Positions 11,279 to 18,052 of a DNA stretch of 64,000 nucleotides are shown in pieces. The first letter of the stretch is position 1; every line of letters starts with the position of its first letter. The notes beneath the pieces were generated by a model. The model did not search any database and had not been told where the DNA came from. It saw only the letters and a list, made by a program, of their open reading frames with translations. Source of the DNA: Bacteroidota bacterium (GTDB lineage: Bacteria; Bacteroidota; Bacteroidia; Bacteroidales; Lentimicrobiaceae); contig WSXX01000026.1 in NCBI GenBank assembly GCA_009773515.1, positions 1 to 64,000 of the forward strand, read 5' to 3'. Position numbers and translations under genes: made by a program.

Positions 11279-12151
11279 ATGCTTAAGTCCATGACCGGTT
11301 TCGGTAAATCATCAGTTTCATTAAAGGGCAAAACAATAACCTTTGAGATCCGATCGCTCAACAGCAAACAACTCGACCTGAATATGCGCCTGCCATCAAT
11401 GCTCCGCGACCTGGAGCCCGAAATCAGAAGGATGGTGAACATTGCAGCCGAAAGAGGAAAAATAGAGATTAATGCTTCAGTTGATATTACCAATGGCGAA
11501 TTACCGGCGGCTATTAACAAACCGCTCGCAATCGCCTATTACCGTGAACTTCAAGCTCTTGCCGAAGAATTGAATGCATCCTCAGCCGATCTGCTTTCCA
11601 TTGTTATGAAGATGCCTGAAATAAGTAAAAGTTCCCGCGAAGAAATTTCTGACGAAGATCATACAGCAATAATTTCAACTGTCAGCGAAGCGCTGGTTCT
11701 TTTCGACGAATTCAGGAAACACGAGGGAATGCTCCTTGAAAATGACTTTTCGGAAAGAATCAATACAATATTAAGGTGCCTTGAAGAGGTTAACCCATTT
11801 GAAGAGCAACGGAATATACAAATGCGTGAAAAGTTAAAAACCAGCTTCTCAGGCTTTAACGAGAACAACACTTTCGACACCAACCGTTTTGAGCAGGAAA
11901 TCATCTACTATCTCGAAAAACTTGACATTACCGAAGAGAAAGTCCGTTTACGCAAACATTGCGATTATTTTCTCGAAACATTGAACGAAGAAGGAGCCAA
12001 TGGACGCAAATTGTCATTCGTTTCTCAGGAAATCGGTCGTGAAATAAATACCCTCGGTTCAAAAGCCAGTGAAGCCAATATTCAAAAGATTGTGGTTCGG
12101 ATGAAAGATGAACTGGAAAAAATAAAAGAACAGCTTGCCAATATTCTTTAG
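11279..12151 (+). CDS. yicC: YicC/YloC family endoribonuclease
   Basis: This 290-residue protein has the usual family length and both conserved ends: MLKSMTGFGKSS at the N-terminus and LSFVSQEIGREINTLGSKAS near the C-terminus, the latter being the DUF1732 signature. YicC is known as a stress-linked endoribonuclease that acts on small RNA or mRNA; the role here is by homology. Its TAG stop abuts the gmk start (a GTG at 12151 overlaps it and the ATG is at 12154), so it heads a tightly coupled operon with gmk, a cyclase and nadD. Confidence 0.92.
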   Translation: MLKSMTGFGKSSVSLKGKTITFEIRSLNSKQLDLNMRLPSMLRDLEPEIRRMVNIAAERGKIEINASVDITNGELPAAINKPLAIAYYRELQALAEELNASSADLLSIVMKMPEISKSSREEISDEDHTAIISTVSEALVLFDEFRKHEGMLLENDFSERINTILRCLEEVNPFEEQRNIQMREKLKTSFSGFNENNTFDTNRFEQEIIYYLEKLDITEEKVRLRKHCDYFLETLNEEGANGRKLSFVSQEIGREINTLGSKASEANIQKIVVRMKDELEKIKEQLANIL

Positions 12152-12153
12152 TG

Positions 12154-12732
12154 ATGAACCGAAACAGCAAGGGTAAATTAATCATTGTGTCAGCGCCATC
12201 AGGAGCCGGAAAAACCACACTGGTAAAACATCTTTTAAACAGTAGTCTTAATCTCGGATTTTCTGTTTCTGCAACCAGCCGCCCTAAAAGAACCGGAGAA
12301 ACTGACGGAAAAGACTATTTTTTTCTCACCACGGAGGACTTCCGCGAAAAGATAAAAAACGGTGATCTCCTGGAATGGGAAGAGGTTTATGAAGGCAGTT
12401 ATTACGGAACATTAAAAACAGAAGTAGAAAAGTTGCTTTTTGCAGGAAAAAATGTTATATTTGACGTTGATGTCGTAGGCGGACTAAACATTAAAAAAAT
12501 ATACGGAAAACGAGCATTATCAGTGTTTATCAGCCCACCTTCAATTGAGGTACTTGAACTTCGTTTGACCAATCGCGGTACAGACAGTGCTGCAACCATC
12601 GCCCACAGAATGGAAAAAGCCCGGTGGGAACTAGACTTTGCTCCTCAGTTTGATCTCATATTGATTAACGACAACCTTGAAGCAGCCAAACAACTGCTCC
12701 TCGATAAGGTAAAAGAGTTTACAGCGTGCTAA
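12154..12732 (+). CDS. gmk: Guanylate kinase
   Basis: This 192-residue enzyme phosphorylates GMP to GDP. The P-loop is APSGAGKTT at residues 14-22, followed by the GMP-binding segment (SATSRPKRTGETDGKDYFF) and the lid region (LTNRGTDSAATIAHRM). The length is normal. It follows yicC with no gap, the common yicC-gmk pairing. The GTG three bases upstream could also be used, adding one residue. Confidence 0.96.
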   Translation: MNRNSKGKLIIVSAPSGAGKTTLVKHLLNSSLNLGFSVSATSRPKRTGETDGKDYFFLTTEDFREKIKNGDLLEWEEVYEGSYYGTLKTEVEKLLFAGKNVIFDVDVVGGLNIKKIYGKRALSVFISPPSIEVLELRLTNRGTDSAATIAHRMEKARWELDFAPQFDLILINDNLEAAKQLLLDKVKEFTAC

Positions 12733-12744
12733 ATACAAACTGTG

Positions 12745-13812
12745 ATGCAAAAAAATGAAGTAGTTCTTATGTTCTCCGACATTCGCGGATACTCGAGATT
12801 GCTCGAGCTTGATGAGCAGGAGGCATTGGAAATACTTTCGAAACACAACGAAATATCGCAGCAACTCATCAGCGAATACAATGGCAACCTGATTAAAAGG
12901 CTGGATGATTCAATCCTGGCTACTTTCCCTTCGGTAAATGATGCATTTTTATGTGCAACTGATTTTCAGGCCAGAATCAAAGAATTTAACCTGAACCGGA
13001 AAAAGCCCAAAAGATTATTGGTAAGCATTGGTCTTCATAAAGGCGAAGCAGAATTTCGCTTCAATACCCTTGCTGGTGAGCAGGTAAACATTACCGCACG
13101 CCTGCAGTCGATGGCAGAGCCAGGCGCTATTTGTATGTCAGGATGTTTTTATTCGGCCATAAGCCGGATGATTGAACCCAAGGTGATTGAATACCGCGAT
13201 GTTTCAATTGAAAATCTTGAAGGCAGTCATAATGTTTACAAAACCCTGTCAATTTATCCCACTGAGTTCAAAGCCGAAAGACCTGTTATACATCAAAGAT
13301 CAGATTTCAGATACCGCATTAAGGACATTGAGCACATCAAGGGAACAGGTTCTTCATTTTTGGGCACTACACTTGTTGCATTAACCGGCTTATCAACATT
13401 TATTTTCTTAATTGCGGGGTTACAATCACAGCAATCCCAAGACAGTGCAATGGTGCTGATCGGTGCATGGTTTACTGCACCGGCTACTTATTTTGCATTA
13501 ATACCGGCTTCACTGTTTTTTGCCGCACTTTATGCCCGCCGCAAAATGCGGGCAGTTTTCGAAGACATACGCGATGTGGATAGAATCCTTGCGTACATTA
13601 TGGCACAGCTGGGCTACCGGCAGCCGATATACCAAAAAGGATTCCTGTTGTTCAGGCCTGAACCCGGAAACTACTTTATTCTGGGAATGAGAAAATTCAG
13701 AGCCCGGGTTGATGGAAATACCATAATTCTTCAAGGTCCATATCTTTACATGTCCCGATTGATCAAGATGCTGAAAAACTATGAACAAACCGGCAAAACA
13801 GAAATCAGTTAA
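12745..13812 (+). CDS. Class III adenylyl cyclase with C-terminal membrane segments
   Basis: Residues 1-175 of this 355-residue protein form a class III nucleotide cyclase domain: metal Asp D12 (FSDIRGYSRL) and D55, Lys K51 for base recognition, and N115/R119 (GEQVNITARL) for the transition state. T108 sits where classical enzymes have Asp, as in class IIIb, so ATP is the likely substrate and cAMP the product. The Gly normally before the second metal Asp is Asp54. Two hydrophobic helices follow (about 205-230 and 240-265), then a ~85-residue cytosolic tail of unknown type. It starts 12 bp after gmk, and its end overlaps nadD by 32 bp. ATG 12745 was preferred over GTG 12742. Confidence 0.82.
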   Translation: MQKNEVVLMFSDIRGYSRLLELDEQEALEILSKHNEISQQLISEYNGNLIKRLDDSILATFPSVNDAFLCATDFQARIKEFNLNRKKPKRLLVSIGLHKGEAEFRFNTLAGEQVNITARLQSMAEPGAICMSGCFYSAISRMIEPKVIEYRDVSIENLEGSHNVYKTLSIYPTEFKAERPVIHQRSDFRYRIKDIEHIKGTGSSFLGTTLVALTGLSTFIFLIAGLQSQQSQDSAMVLIGAWFTAPATYFALIPASLFFAALYARRKMRAVFEDIRDVDRILAYIMAQLGYRQPIYQKGFLLFRPEPGNYFILGMRKFRARVDGNTIILQGPYLYMSRLIKMLKNYEQTGKTEIS

Positions 13813-14386
13813 ACCTACCGGACTCTTCTTCGGATCATTTAATCCCATTCACAACGGCCATCTTTGTATTGCCGAGTATATGGTTGAATTTGGCGAGTTG
13901 GAAGAAGTGTGGTTTATTGTATCTCCCCTCAACCCTTTAAAAGATAAATCAACCCTTCTTTCCGATCAGTATCGCCTTGACATGGTAGAAGCTGCCATAA
14001 AAGATGATGAACGTTTCAGGGTGCTGGATATTGAATTCAGGATGCCGCGCCCTTCATATACCATTGATACACTTACCCGCCTTTCAGAATTACACCCAAA
14101 CCGTCAGTTTGTATTGATTGCCGGCACCGATGTATTGCCATCCTTTCACAAATGGAAAAATTATGAACAATTGCTTGATCAATACCAGTTTATAATTTAT
14201 CCCCGGCATGGCGATGAGAACCACCCATTGCTGAGCCATCCATCTGTAAAACTGCTCAATTCGCCCCGCATTGAAATTTCTGCCAGCTTTATCCGTGATG
14301 CCATAAAAAACGAAAAAGGCATCAGGTACTTCATTCCTGAAAAAGTACGTGAGATGATTGAAAAAATGGGGTTTTACAAAAGGTAG
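13781..14386 (+). CDS. nadD: Nicotinate-nucleotide adenylyltransferase
   Basis: This 201-residue enzyme joins nicotinate mononucleotide to AMP in NAD synthesis. It shows the nucleotidyltransferase HxGH motif (GSFNPIHNGHL, H24 and H27), the PLNPLKDK loop, the RPSYTIDTL segment and the IEISASFIRDAI motif that contacts phosphate. Its first 32 bp lie within the cyclase gene, so translational coupling is likely. It is the last gene of the yicC-gmk-cyclase-nadD operon, and its last 13 bp overlap the convergent hydrolase. Confidence 0.95.
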   Translation: MNKPAKQKSVKPTGLFFGSFNPIHNGHLCIAEYMVEFGELEEVWFIVSPLNPLKDKSTLLSDQYRLDMVEAAIKDDERFRVLDIEFRMPRPSYTIDTLTRLSELHPNRQFVLIAGTDVLPSFHKWKNYEQLLDQYQFIIYPRHGDENHPLLSHPSVKLLNSPRIEISASFIRDAIKNEKGIRYFIPEKVREMIEKMGFYKR

Positions 14387-15259: not shown

Positions 15260-16651
15260 TTACTTTGCCATTATTGCCTCAATATCAGCAACTGTTTTCG
15301 GAATTGGTTTCCCAAGAACGCGGTTACCGGTTTCGGTTACAAGCACATCGTCTTCGATGCGGATTCCACCAAAATCCTTATAAGTCTCAACTTTATCGTA
15401 ATTGATAAATTCAATAAATTTTCCTTCGGCTTTCCACTGATCGATCAGCGCGGGAATGAAATAAATTCCGGGCTCAACCGTGAGTACAAATCCGGGTTGC
15501 AAGCGGCGGCCCAGGCGGAGAAATGCAGTTCCGAACTGTTTTGAACGCACAGTTTCGTCATCATAACCTACAAAGTTTTCGCCCAGATTTTCCATATCAT
15601 GCACATCCATACCCATCATATGACCAAGTCCGTGAGGGAAAAACAGCGCATGTGCACCGGCAGCAACTGCGGCATCGGTATCACCTTTCATCAGACCGGC
15701 ATTTTTCAGCCCTTCGGCTACTGCTTTGGCAGCAATCATATGAACTTCACGATAAGGAATGCCTGGCTTGATGGCTTCGATGGCTTTCATGTTGGCGTTA
15801 AGCACGATTTCATAAATCTCTTTCTGTCGGGGGCTAAACTTTCCTCCAACCGGAACGGTTCGGGTAATATCGCTTGAATAAAGTGTTTTTTCTGATTCGC
15901 ATCCGGAATCGACCACCAGCATACGGCCTTCAACCAGTGTATTTCCATGATAATGATTGTGCAGCGTTTGCCCGTCCATACTCAGGATAACAGGAAAAGA
16001 AACCGGACCTGCATTGGCCAATGCAACACCTTCGATGGTACCGGCAATCTCTTGCTCAACAATACCCGGATGTGCCATTTTCATGGCAGTGGTATGCATC
16101 AGGTAAGCAACATCTACCATTTTTTCAATTTCAACAATTTCTTCGGCCGATTTAATGCTGCGAAGTTTCACCACGCCACGAATCAGTTCTTCAGAAGCAG
16201 CAGCTTTCAACCCGGCGGGAGCAATACCCAGCAAATCGGAAAGCATAATTTTGGTTTCACCCCGGTATGGAGGAAGAAAATGAACTTTACGGCCATTGGA
16301 AACCGCTTCTTTTACATAAGATTCAAAATCAGCAAGGGGCGAGGTATTTTTGACTCCAACAAGAGCTCCCCGGTCAACCATTGAGGGCTGAGGACCCATC
16401 CAGATGATGTCATCCATATCCACATCGTTGCCAAACAGAATTTCTGAACGATTGTCAAAATCAATGATACCGGCCAGATCGGGTTGATTTAACCCGAAAA
16501 AATAGCTGAAAGTACTGTCCTGCCTGAAATGGTAAGTATTTGCAGGATAATTGAAAGAGGCTTCCACATTTCCCGGGAAAATGGCTATGCCTGATTTTAC
16601 TTCAGCACGAAGCGCATTGCGACGTCCTGAATAGGTTTCTGGTTTGAACAT
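15260..16651 (-). CDS. Aminopeptidase P family metallopeptidase (Xaa-Pro peptidase)
   Basis: This 463-residue M24 peptidase cleaves the N-terminal residue before proline. The five metal ligands are present: two Asp (VVDSG, SSDITRT), His (FFPHGLGHMMG) and two Glu (TVEPGIYF, GIRIEDDVLV). The N-terminal half is the usual creatinase-like domain (SFNYPANTYHFRQDSTFSY), which in this family often helps tetramer formation. No signal peptide is seen. It has its own promoter at 16693-16725. Its paralogue lies directly upstream. Confidence 0.93.
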   Translation of the reverse strand: MFKPETYSGRRNALRAEVKSGIAIFPGNVEASFNYPANTYHFRQDSTFSYFFGLNQPDLAGIIDFDNRSEILFGNDVDMDDIIWMGPQPSMVDRGALVGVKNTSPLADFESYVKEAVSNGRKVHFLPPYRGETKIMLSDLLGIAPAGLKAAASEELIRGVVKLRSIKSAEEIVEIEKMVDVAYLMHTTAMKMAHPGIVEQEIAGTIEGVALANAGPVSFPVILSMDGQTLHNHYHGNTLVEGRMLVVDSGCESEKTLYSSDITRTVPVGGKFSPRQKEIYEIVLNANMKAIEAIKPGIPYREVHMIAAKAVAEGLKNAGLMKGDTDAAVAAGAHALFFPHGLGHMMGMDVHDMENLGENFVGYDDETVRSKQFGTAFLRLGRRLQPGFVLTVEPGIYFIPALIDQWKAEGKFIEFINYDKVETYKDFGGIRIEDDVLVTETGNRVLGKPIPKTVADIEAIMAK

Positions 16652-16765: not shown

Positions 16766-18052
16766 TTACTTTGCCATCAATGCCTCAATGTCATCCGGTT
16801 CAATAGGAATATGTGCCATTAGATCTATTGGCTCCGTATCGACAAGAATATCGTTTTCGAGCCGGATGCCAAAACCTTCCTCAGGAATGTAAATCGCCGG
16901 TTCGCAACTAAGCACCATTCCCTTTCGCAACGGATATTGTTTGCTACCAACATCGTGCACATCAAGACCCATAAAATGGGACGTTCCATGCATATAGTAC
17001 TTGAAAAACAAGGGGTTTGCAGGATCCTGATTCTCAACATCTTTGCGGGTAAATAAACCAAGCCCGATCAGTTCAGCTTCAATGAATTTACATACTTCGG
17101 CATGATACTTATCGATGGTAGTACCGGGAACCAGCATTTTTGAAGCTTTGCGGAGCACACGCAATACAGCTTCATAAACCTGGCGCTGCCTTGGCGTGAA
17201 CTTGCCATTAACCGGGATGGTGCGTGAACAATCGCCGGCATAATTTGCGTATTCGGCACCAAAATCGAGCAACAGTAAATCCCCGTCTTTGCATTCCTGA
17301 TCATTCTGATTGTAATGAAGAATACAATTGTTCTCACCTGAAGCTACAATTGGCGGGTATGCGTGCCCTGAAGCTCCGTTGCGTATAAACTCATGGGCAA
17401 TTTCCGCTTCCACTTCATACTCTTTAACTCCGGGTTTAACAAAATTAAGAATACGCCCGAAAGCATCTCCCGTGATTTCGCAAGCACGTTCAATTAACTT
17501 TATTTCTTCTGCATCTTTTACAATACGCAGATCGGTAAGCAATGGAGCCAACCTTTCAAATGAATGCAAAGGATAATCCATACGGAGTTTTTGCATAAAA
17601 CGGAGATCGCGAGAAGGCACATCCGTTGTGAACCGCGGGTTTTCATTCTGATTAAGGTAAACAAAATCAGCACGGGCCATCAGATCGCGAAAAGTGCTTT
17701 CGAAATCATCGAGCCATTTCACAGTTTTTACGCCCGAAATCTCAGTAACCTGCTCAAGGTTGTATTTATGTCCGTACCATGTAACCATCTGGTCGTTGGT
17801 TTTAACTGTAAATACAATCTCCCGCATAGCCTCAACAGGATGATTGGGGAATAAAGTGAGTATGCATTTTTCCTGATCGAGGCCGGTAAGGTAAAACATA
17901 TCGCTGTGCTGCCTGAAAGGGAAGCATTGGTCACCGTTACGGGGCATTTCGTCATTAGAATGAATGACAGCCAATGCATTGGGCTTTAGTTTCTTTTCAA
18001 GCCGCTCTCTGTTTTTGCCAAACAGAAGGGGATTAATGGGTAGATAGCGCAT
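16766..18052 (-). CDS. pepP: Aminopeptidase P (Xaa-Pro aminopeptidase) paralogue
   Basis: This 428-residue M24 enzyme begins with an AMP_N domain (about residues 1-135; GDQCFPFRQHSDMFYLTGL) and then the catalytic pita-bread domain. The ligands are LLLDFGAEYANYAGDCSRT (two Asp), YMHGTSHFMGLDVHD (His), and CEPAIYI with GFGIRLENDIL (two Glu). It is closer to classical PepP than its neighbour, and the pair probably differ in peptide preference. It is divergent from the succinate dehydrogenase operon. Confidence 0.93.
   Translation of the reverse strand: MRYLPINPLLFGKNRERLEKKLKPNALAVIHSNDEMPRNGDQCFPFRQHSDMFYLTGLDQEKCILTLFPNHPVEAMREIVFTVKTNDQMVTWYGHKYNLEQVTEISGVKTVKWLDDFESTFRDLMARADFVYLNQNENPRFTTDVPSRDLRFMQKLRMDYPLHSFERLAPLLTDLRIVKDAEEIKLIERACEITGDAFGRILNFVKPGVKEYEVEAEIAHEFIRNGASGHAYPPIVASGENNCILHYNQNDQECKDGDLLLLDFGAEYANYAGDCSRTIPVNGKFTPRQRQVYEAVLRVLRKASKMLVPGTTIDKYHAEVCKFIEAELIGLGLFTRKDVENQDPANPLFFKYYMHGTSHFMGLDVHDVGSKQYPLRKGMVLSCEPAIYIPEEGFGIRLENDILVDTEPIDLMAHIPIEPDDIEALMAK

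Follow-up and report, generated by a model that had tools for sequence, protein, structure and literature searches.

A class III nucleotide cyclase with an invariant Asp-Asp hairpin and a putative orphan C-terminal domain between gmk and nadD in a genus of Bacteroidales

Why does a gene for a nucleotide cyclase lie between gmk and nadD, and is its product an active enzyme, a signalling protein or a partner of GMP and NAD synthesis? The window (the whole stretch of 64,000 nucleotides analysed here, from contig WSXX01000026.1 of a member of the Lentimicrobiaceae) contains an ORF of 355 amino acids on the plus strand (12745..13812), which begins with an ATG at 12745 and whose stop codon ends at 13812. 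Translation could alternatively start at a GTG (12742), but in each of the 11 other orthologues the match starts with the first residue of the ATG form. The ORF is preceded by yicC (11279..12151, plus strand; PF08340 and PF03755) and gmk, encoding guanylate kinase (12151..12732, plus strand; PF00625, E 9.9e-43), and because the gmk stop codon ends at 12732, a gap of 12 bp is left before the cyclase. The downstream gene (13781..14386, plus strand) encodes a cytidylyltransferase-like protein of the nicotinate-nucleotide adenylyltransferase type (PF01467, E 2.7e-20) and, judging from its family and context, is presumably nadD; its ATG at 13781 generates a 32-bp overlap with the 3' end of the cyclase gene. 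The ORF coordinates thus confirm the position, gap and overlap given by the first-pass annotation of this DNA. Promoter-like and terminator-like sites showed no excess over shuffled sequences beyond noise (4 versus 8.1 and 4 versus 3.6, respectively), and a repeat search revealed nothing of note. In the surroundings, a gene for a LytTR-type response regulator (PF00072 and PF04397; 10245-10994, minus strand) is located divergently upstream of yicC, and a gene for an alpha/beta hydrolase (PF00561; 14374-15177, minus strand) converges on nadD with a 13-base overlap with its 3' end. These are followed by tandem genes for aminopeptidase P-type M24 peptidases (15260-16651 and 16766-18052, minus strand), both containing PF00557 and PF05195.

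The catalytic domain occupies residues 1-170 (12745..13254, plus strand) and belongs to class III by profile, fold and catalytic residues. PF00211 matches residues 2-160 with 38.1 bits (E 1.5e-9; cut-off 21.9), and the PDB sequence search matched the cyclase 3mr7 at E 3.6e-17. The structure model used here was the second one, built from the 44 aligned rows of alignment A3 (12 orthologues and 32 relatives; mean pLDDT 78); the first, built from 11 rows, was poor (mean pLDDT 58) and was set aside. By blocks, the pLDDT is 82-96 over residues 1-140, except for 71 at residues 101-110, and 67-85 over residues 141-170. The modelled domain superposes on Ma1120 of Mycobacterium avium (4wp8_B) with a Z score of 24.2 and an rmsd of 1.9 over 164 aligned residues, and also matches 3mr7_B (Z 23.8) and the Rv1900c cyclase domain (1ybu_B, Z 23.6). 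The same catalytic fold is therefore shared with Ma1120 (PDB 4wp8, 4wpa and 5d15) and Rv1900c, at a sequence identity of about 22-24%. The two metal-binding Asp residues (D12 and D55) and the transition-state Asn/Arg pair (N115 and R119) are invariant in all 44 rows of A3, including 12/12 orthologues; in the third of the cyclase panels used for comparison, an Ile is aligned with position 115 in 2 of 29 rows (L144 and L145), perhaps through an alignment slip. The metal Asps and the Arg also align in Ma1120, which differs in having a Gly before the second Asp and, according to PMC4215837, an Asp (Asp157) at the adenine site and an Ala in place of the transition-state Asn. The class III assignment of the first-pass annotation and its numbering of D12, K51, D54, D55, T108, N115 and R119 are upheld, and the structure prediction and HMM search that it had proposed for this domain recovered the class III fold and PF00211. 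The only NCBIfam matches, LipJ (44 bits) and TIGR04510 (16 bits), stayed below their cut-offs of 800 and 400, respectively; PHROG 34154, a family of unknown function, matches residues 8-79 (E 1.4e-4); and in Foldseek searches of the model, cyclases were among the top 50 PDB matches. Against viral proteins, Foldseek gave 11 matches with E < 0.001, including guanylate-cyclase-domain, kinase and unnamed proteins.

A distinctive feature of the domain is the segment K51-R52-L53-D54-D55 (12895..12909, plus strand), a KxxGD hairpin in which Asp replaces Gly. Asp54 is present in 12/12 orthologues, none of which retains the Gly. The equivalent position is Gly in all 85 other class III cyclase rows examined (30/30, 26/26 and 29/29 in three panels), although two of these rows (L019 and L105) are the same gene and the panels lean to Bacteroidota, the third also to the best profile scorers. 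The atypical Asp-Asp motif pointed out in the first-pass annotation is thus a fixed property of the orthologue group. In the structure model, residues 54 and 55 fall between strands 48-53 and 56-61, i.e. in the hairpin turn. To our knowledge, a Gly before the second metal Asp is near-universal in class III, although it stands outside the formal definition of the class, and we know of no assayed protein with Asp at this position. Among the literature matches listed, no account using the motif term KxxGD was found. Other Bacteroidetes cyclase-like proteins, distinct from this one, have been described with a Glu-Lys/Arg pair (PMC4886424).

Selection on the gene bears on how this replacement should be understood. 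In three close orthologue pairs with usable dS, dN/dS over residues 1-340 was 0.012, 0.019 and 0.044; three further pairs were saturated in dS when taken over their full length. These values indicate that the cyclase is functional and under strong purifying selection. When one pair (G000-G001) was divided into parts, dN/dS was 0.045 in the tail (at dS 2.7) and 0.32 in the membrane part (at dS 1.4). Asp is tolerated in tight turns where Gly is usual, and a purely structural role of Asp54 is therefore possible, but its fixation under strong selection argues for some role. As a fixed and selected change in the metal hairpin, Asp54 probably retunes the handling of metal or phosphate. A bolder reading, to which we would give a small but real chance, is that these proteins form a new class III subtype, in which the invariant Asp-Asp would add one more acidic group, the third, to the metal site, the base pocket would be relaxed, the metal need would differ or the product would not be cAMP, and a C-terminal domain without known relatives would gate the activity at the membrane. 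A strictly conserved natural Asp-Asp version under strong selection offers a direct test of the purpose of that Gly.

The base-binding positions are less constrained. In the order G000, G006, G013, G001, G005, G011, G017, G010, G007, G015, G012 and G004, the 12 orthologues carry T, S, V, V, V, V, A, A, L, Q, A and A at position 108 and L, I, L, L, L, L, N, N, L, N, N and N at position 53. Position 108 is thus never Asp, is mostly Val or Ala, and is Thr or Ser in only two proteins, one of which is that of the window (T108). Position 51 is Lys in 11 of the 12 and Arg in G007. Thr or Ser in place of the adenine-contacting Asp is a mark of class IIIb, and T108 had been taken as such a trait in the first-pass annotation. 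This assignment was rejected because position 108 varies among the orthologues and the dimerisation arm is short: the stretch from G100 up to N115 is 15 residues long in this cyclase, as it is in 19 relatives from the Bacteroidales, compared with 22-25 in the other 66 rows. A short arm is the feature by which class IIIc is recognised (PMC4626032). These proteins possess it, but they do not retain the adenine-binding Lys/Asp pair found in the class IIIc enzyme of M. phlei, given that position 108 is never Asp and Lys51 is kept in 11/12. Judged from the alignment, the canonical base contact is lost in this cyclase. The M. phlei adenylyl cyclase resembles the present protein in its short arm and in having a further domain, regulatory in that enzyme, behind the cyclase domain; it differs in carrying a YHS copper-sensor domain, through which copper activates the enzyme, an 8-residue linker and all six canonical catalytic residues (PMC4626032), and no such tail is present here.

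The closest catalytic relatives found outside the genus (E 7.5e-29 to 5.8e-20, in an order sample with at most 5 candidates per genome) are the 19 Bacteroidales loci with the 15-residue arm (L084-L102), which have long frames of 648-1031 aa. They differ in having Gly at position 54 in 19/19 and, at position 108, Asp in 17, Asn in one and Glu in one. Three of them (L084, L085 and L087), read by eye, carry long repeat-rich, TPR-like tails instead of a hairpin and a 90-aa domain. In the same order, genomes G579, G586, G676 and G741 each yielded at least five matches of the class III cyclase type.

The product may be considered in the light of this altered pocket. The retention of Lys51 in 11/12 orthologues and the six matches to the cNMP-binding domain PF00027 in the same genome make cAMP, in our view, the likeliest product. 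Loss of the contact at position 108 is by itself no argument against an adenylyl cyclase, since the D157G and D157T variants of Ma1120 are reported to keep making cAMP, at a 3-5 fold lower level (PMC4215837). An active class III cyclase with another main product (cGMP, a cyclic pyrimidine or a mixture) appears unlikely, but it draws on several observations. The canonical Asp/Thr has been lost from the pocket, positions 51, 53 and 108 all vary, and guanylyl cyclases are described with C, S, T, H, A or G at the Asp position; however, they are also described with Glu replacing the Lys (PMC4215837), the residue that is retained here in all but one orthologue. A comparison with the Pycsar cyclases, which share the class III fold and have variable base-reading residues (PMC11224242), is similarly two-sided. 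The cytidylate cyclase EaPycC is reported to read its base by F100, R142 and Q144 around D102 and D146 (PMC11224242), and by our own mapping, based on spacing, these residues may correspond to F10, K51 and L53 here. PADLOC gave PycC matches (best E 1.6e-6), but these are weak and can be explained by the shared PF00211 domain. Furthermore, the genes that immediately flank the cyclase are gmk and nadD in 12/12 carriers, and no Pycsar effector was found among these neighbours.

The catalytic domain is followed by a presumed transmembrane hairpin at about residues 204-264 (13354..13536, plus strand), delineated by two hydrophobic peaks, column invariance and helices in the model. The two hydrophobic segments, already noticed in the first-pass annotation, lie within residues 205-228 and 235-264, C-terminal to the catalytic domain, in 12/12 orthologues. 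The second peak is modest (1.28-1.80), and a peak within the catalytic domain (residues 57-76; 1.22-1.49) also exceeds the same hydrophobicity threshold in 9/12. Six Lys/Arg residues occur within residues 264-283 in each of the 12 orthologues and, together with the two segments, suggest a hairpin whose N- and C-terminal ends are both cytoplasmic. This region evolves rapidly, with 8 of 62 columns (residues 204-265) invariant among the orthologues, and it is weakly modelled (block pLDDT 56-79 over residues 201-270).

The remaining C-terminal domain, residues 266-355 (13540..13812, plus strand), is more conserved than the catalytic domain: 41 of 75 columns are invariant over residues 266-340, compared with 69 of 170 over residues 1-170. 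The last cyclase residues overlap nadD and are therefore under an extra constraint. The tail had been left unassigned in the first-pass annotation, and it had no significant match in Pfam (best DUF7940, E 0.77), in PHROG (best 34782, E 0.31) or among PDB sequences (none, or one at E 1.4); its soluble part had no Pfam match in 10/10 members. The structure comparison of the model was filled by residues 1-176, i.e. by the catalytic part. The longer tail profile, A2, matched only the source genome among 395 genomes of a phylum sample, and there gave a single match at E up to 10. Profile A4 matched 15 of 393 order genomes, including three strong matches, all within the genus; scoring in these tail searches was limited to the top candidates of each genome, up to 9 in the phylum sample and up to 13 for A4 in the order. 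The other 12 A4 matches (E 0.026-0.089) were short pieces, 8 of which contained internal stops, and were taken as chance. In the samples searched, the C-terminal domain thus appears to be an orphan, so far confined to the source genus. Being strongly conserved and linked to a single enzyme in a single genus, this unassigned module is a candidate for a new input into cyclic-nucleotide signalling.

The conservation of this domain also underlies a different interpretation, in which a catalytically weak or dead cyclase fold senses nucleotides or provides a scaffold, while the C-terminal domain does the actual work. The replacement of Gly by Asp, where 85/85 other rows have Gly, the loss of the base-specifying residue and the stronger conservation of the tail speak for such a protein. 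All 12 orthologues, however, retain the two metal Asps and the Asn/Arg pair, which a dead enzyme would have no need to do; we consider this interpretation distinctly improbable.

It is rather probable, on the basis of these comparisons, that the gene encodes an active, membrane-anchored, homodimeric class III cyclase that produces cAMP under the control of an orphan C-terminal domain. The N-terminal catalytic domains would form head-to-tail pairs in the cytoplasm with active sites shared between the two partners, in which D12 and D55 would serve as metal ligands and N115 and R119 would stabilise the transition state. The predicted transmembrane hairpin would anchor the enzyme, and the cytoplasmic C-terminal domain could act as a regulatory or docking module, possibly as a sensor; the M. 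phlei enzyme with its YHS domain provides a precedent for C-terminal regulators. The cAMP, as the most likely product, would be sensed by CRP/FNR-type cNMP-binding proteins that the genome also encodes. Three further cyclases with canonical motifs are encoded in this genome, so this one is not the sole source. The points that count against this proposal are that position 108 is never Asp, that G007 has Arg51, that no assayed protein with Asp at position 54 is known to us, that the three other cyclases exist, that the cyclase tree places G007 differently from the housekeeping tree, that the model is weak at residues 101-110 and in the membrane part, and that the second hydrophobic peak exceeds the peak within the catalytic domain by little. 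The fold and the catalytic residues are of a known kind; the novelty lies in an Asp-Asp hairpin that is invariant, a base position that is relaxed and an orphan tail linked to the membrane.

The relation of the cyclase to its operon can be judged from its distribution. A full-length orthologue was found in 12 of 19 genomes of the genus (the source included), and in 12/12 carriers the gene sits between gmk and nadD and overlaps the latter; the 11 further orthologues share 62-74% identity with the protein of the window. One genome (G002, 79% complete) had no gmk or nadD match and is thus uninformative, leaving 18 informative genomes, in six of which (G003, G008, G009, G014, G016 and G018) gmk is followed by nadD without a cyclase. 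No cyclase remnants were detected in these six gaps (best hmmsearch score -2.6). In G008 (locus L055), the gap is 186 nt long (about 2071-2256) and contains no detectable cyclase remnant. The orthologue was absent from 41 other order genomes searched, and in the order sample of 393 genomes, with at most 5 candidates scored per genome, full-length matches were confined to the genus (G000, G001 and G005). At six nadD loci outside the genus, gmk adjoins nadD without a cyclase in four, and no gmk lies within the stretch in two. A survey of gmk-nadD neighbourhoods had been proposed in the first-pass annotation, with absence from all close relatives as the outcome that would make the placement incidental; such a general absence did not occur.

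That annotation had also suggested that the cyclase is coupled to GMP or NAD synthesis. The constant site in 12/12 carriers and the overlap with nadD in all of them are in line with this suggestion, but a single insertion would be enough to account for the conserved order, without any coupling. In addition, 6 of the 18 informative genomes, and four of the six nadD loci outside the genus, keep gmk beside nadD without any cyclase. Because six relatives retain gmk-nadD but lack the cyclase, coupling is unsupported, and we regard it as very improbable indeed. By the measures used here, the cyclase gene is functional, yet the gmk-nadD operon can do without it. The cyclase would then share the expression of the operon, presumably by co-transcription, without serving GMP or NAD synthesis. 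In a limited literature search, no report was found that combined adenylate cyclase with either Lentimicrobium or gmk, nadD and an operon, and none of the Lentimicrobium matches listed concerned cAMP by title.

The carriers are dispersed over a tree built from YicC, Gmk and NadD, and four changes are required, two of which are forced by the starred branches alone; the outgroup branches of this tree are long, 7 of its 18 inner branches are open, and the row of G011 is 44% filled. A single clade of carriers was rejected (AU test, p 3e-10), so that losses or transfers are needed. Losses are favoured over transfers because every carrier has the same site and the same overlap, and one early gain in the sampled genus, presumably a single entry between gmk and nadD, followed by about three losses, fits these data best. 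The carrier G007 branches first on the YicC, Gmk and NadD tree with modest support (72/91), whereas the cyclase tree groups it with G011 and its neighbours (81/85), and this discordance leaves room for some exchange of the cyclase between species. Between close species, the cyclase diverges less than YicC, Gmk and NadD together, e.g. about 0.04 versus 0.12 changes per column between G012 and G004. The locus illustrates clearly how a signalling gene can settle in a conserved operon and yet be absent in a patchy manner from closely related genomes. The N-terminal extension of NadD (13781-13840), which overlaps the cyclase in the carriers, is shorter in the cyclase-free genomes G003, G008 and G009, but is of similar length in G018, G014 and G016, which fits a loss of the cyclase in the latter three.
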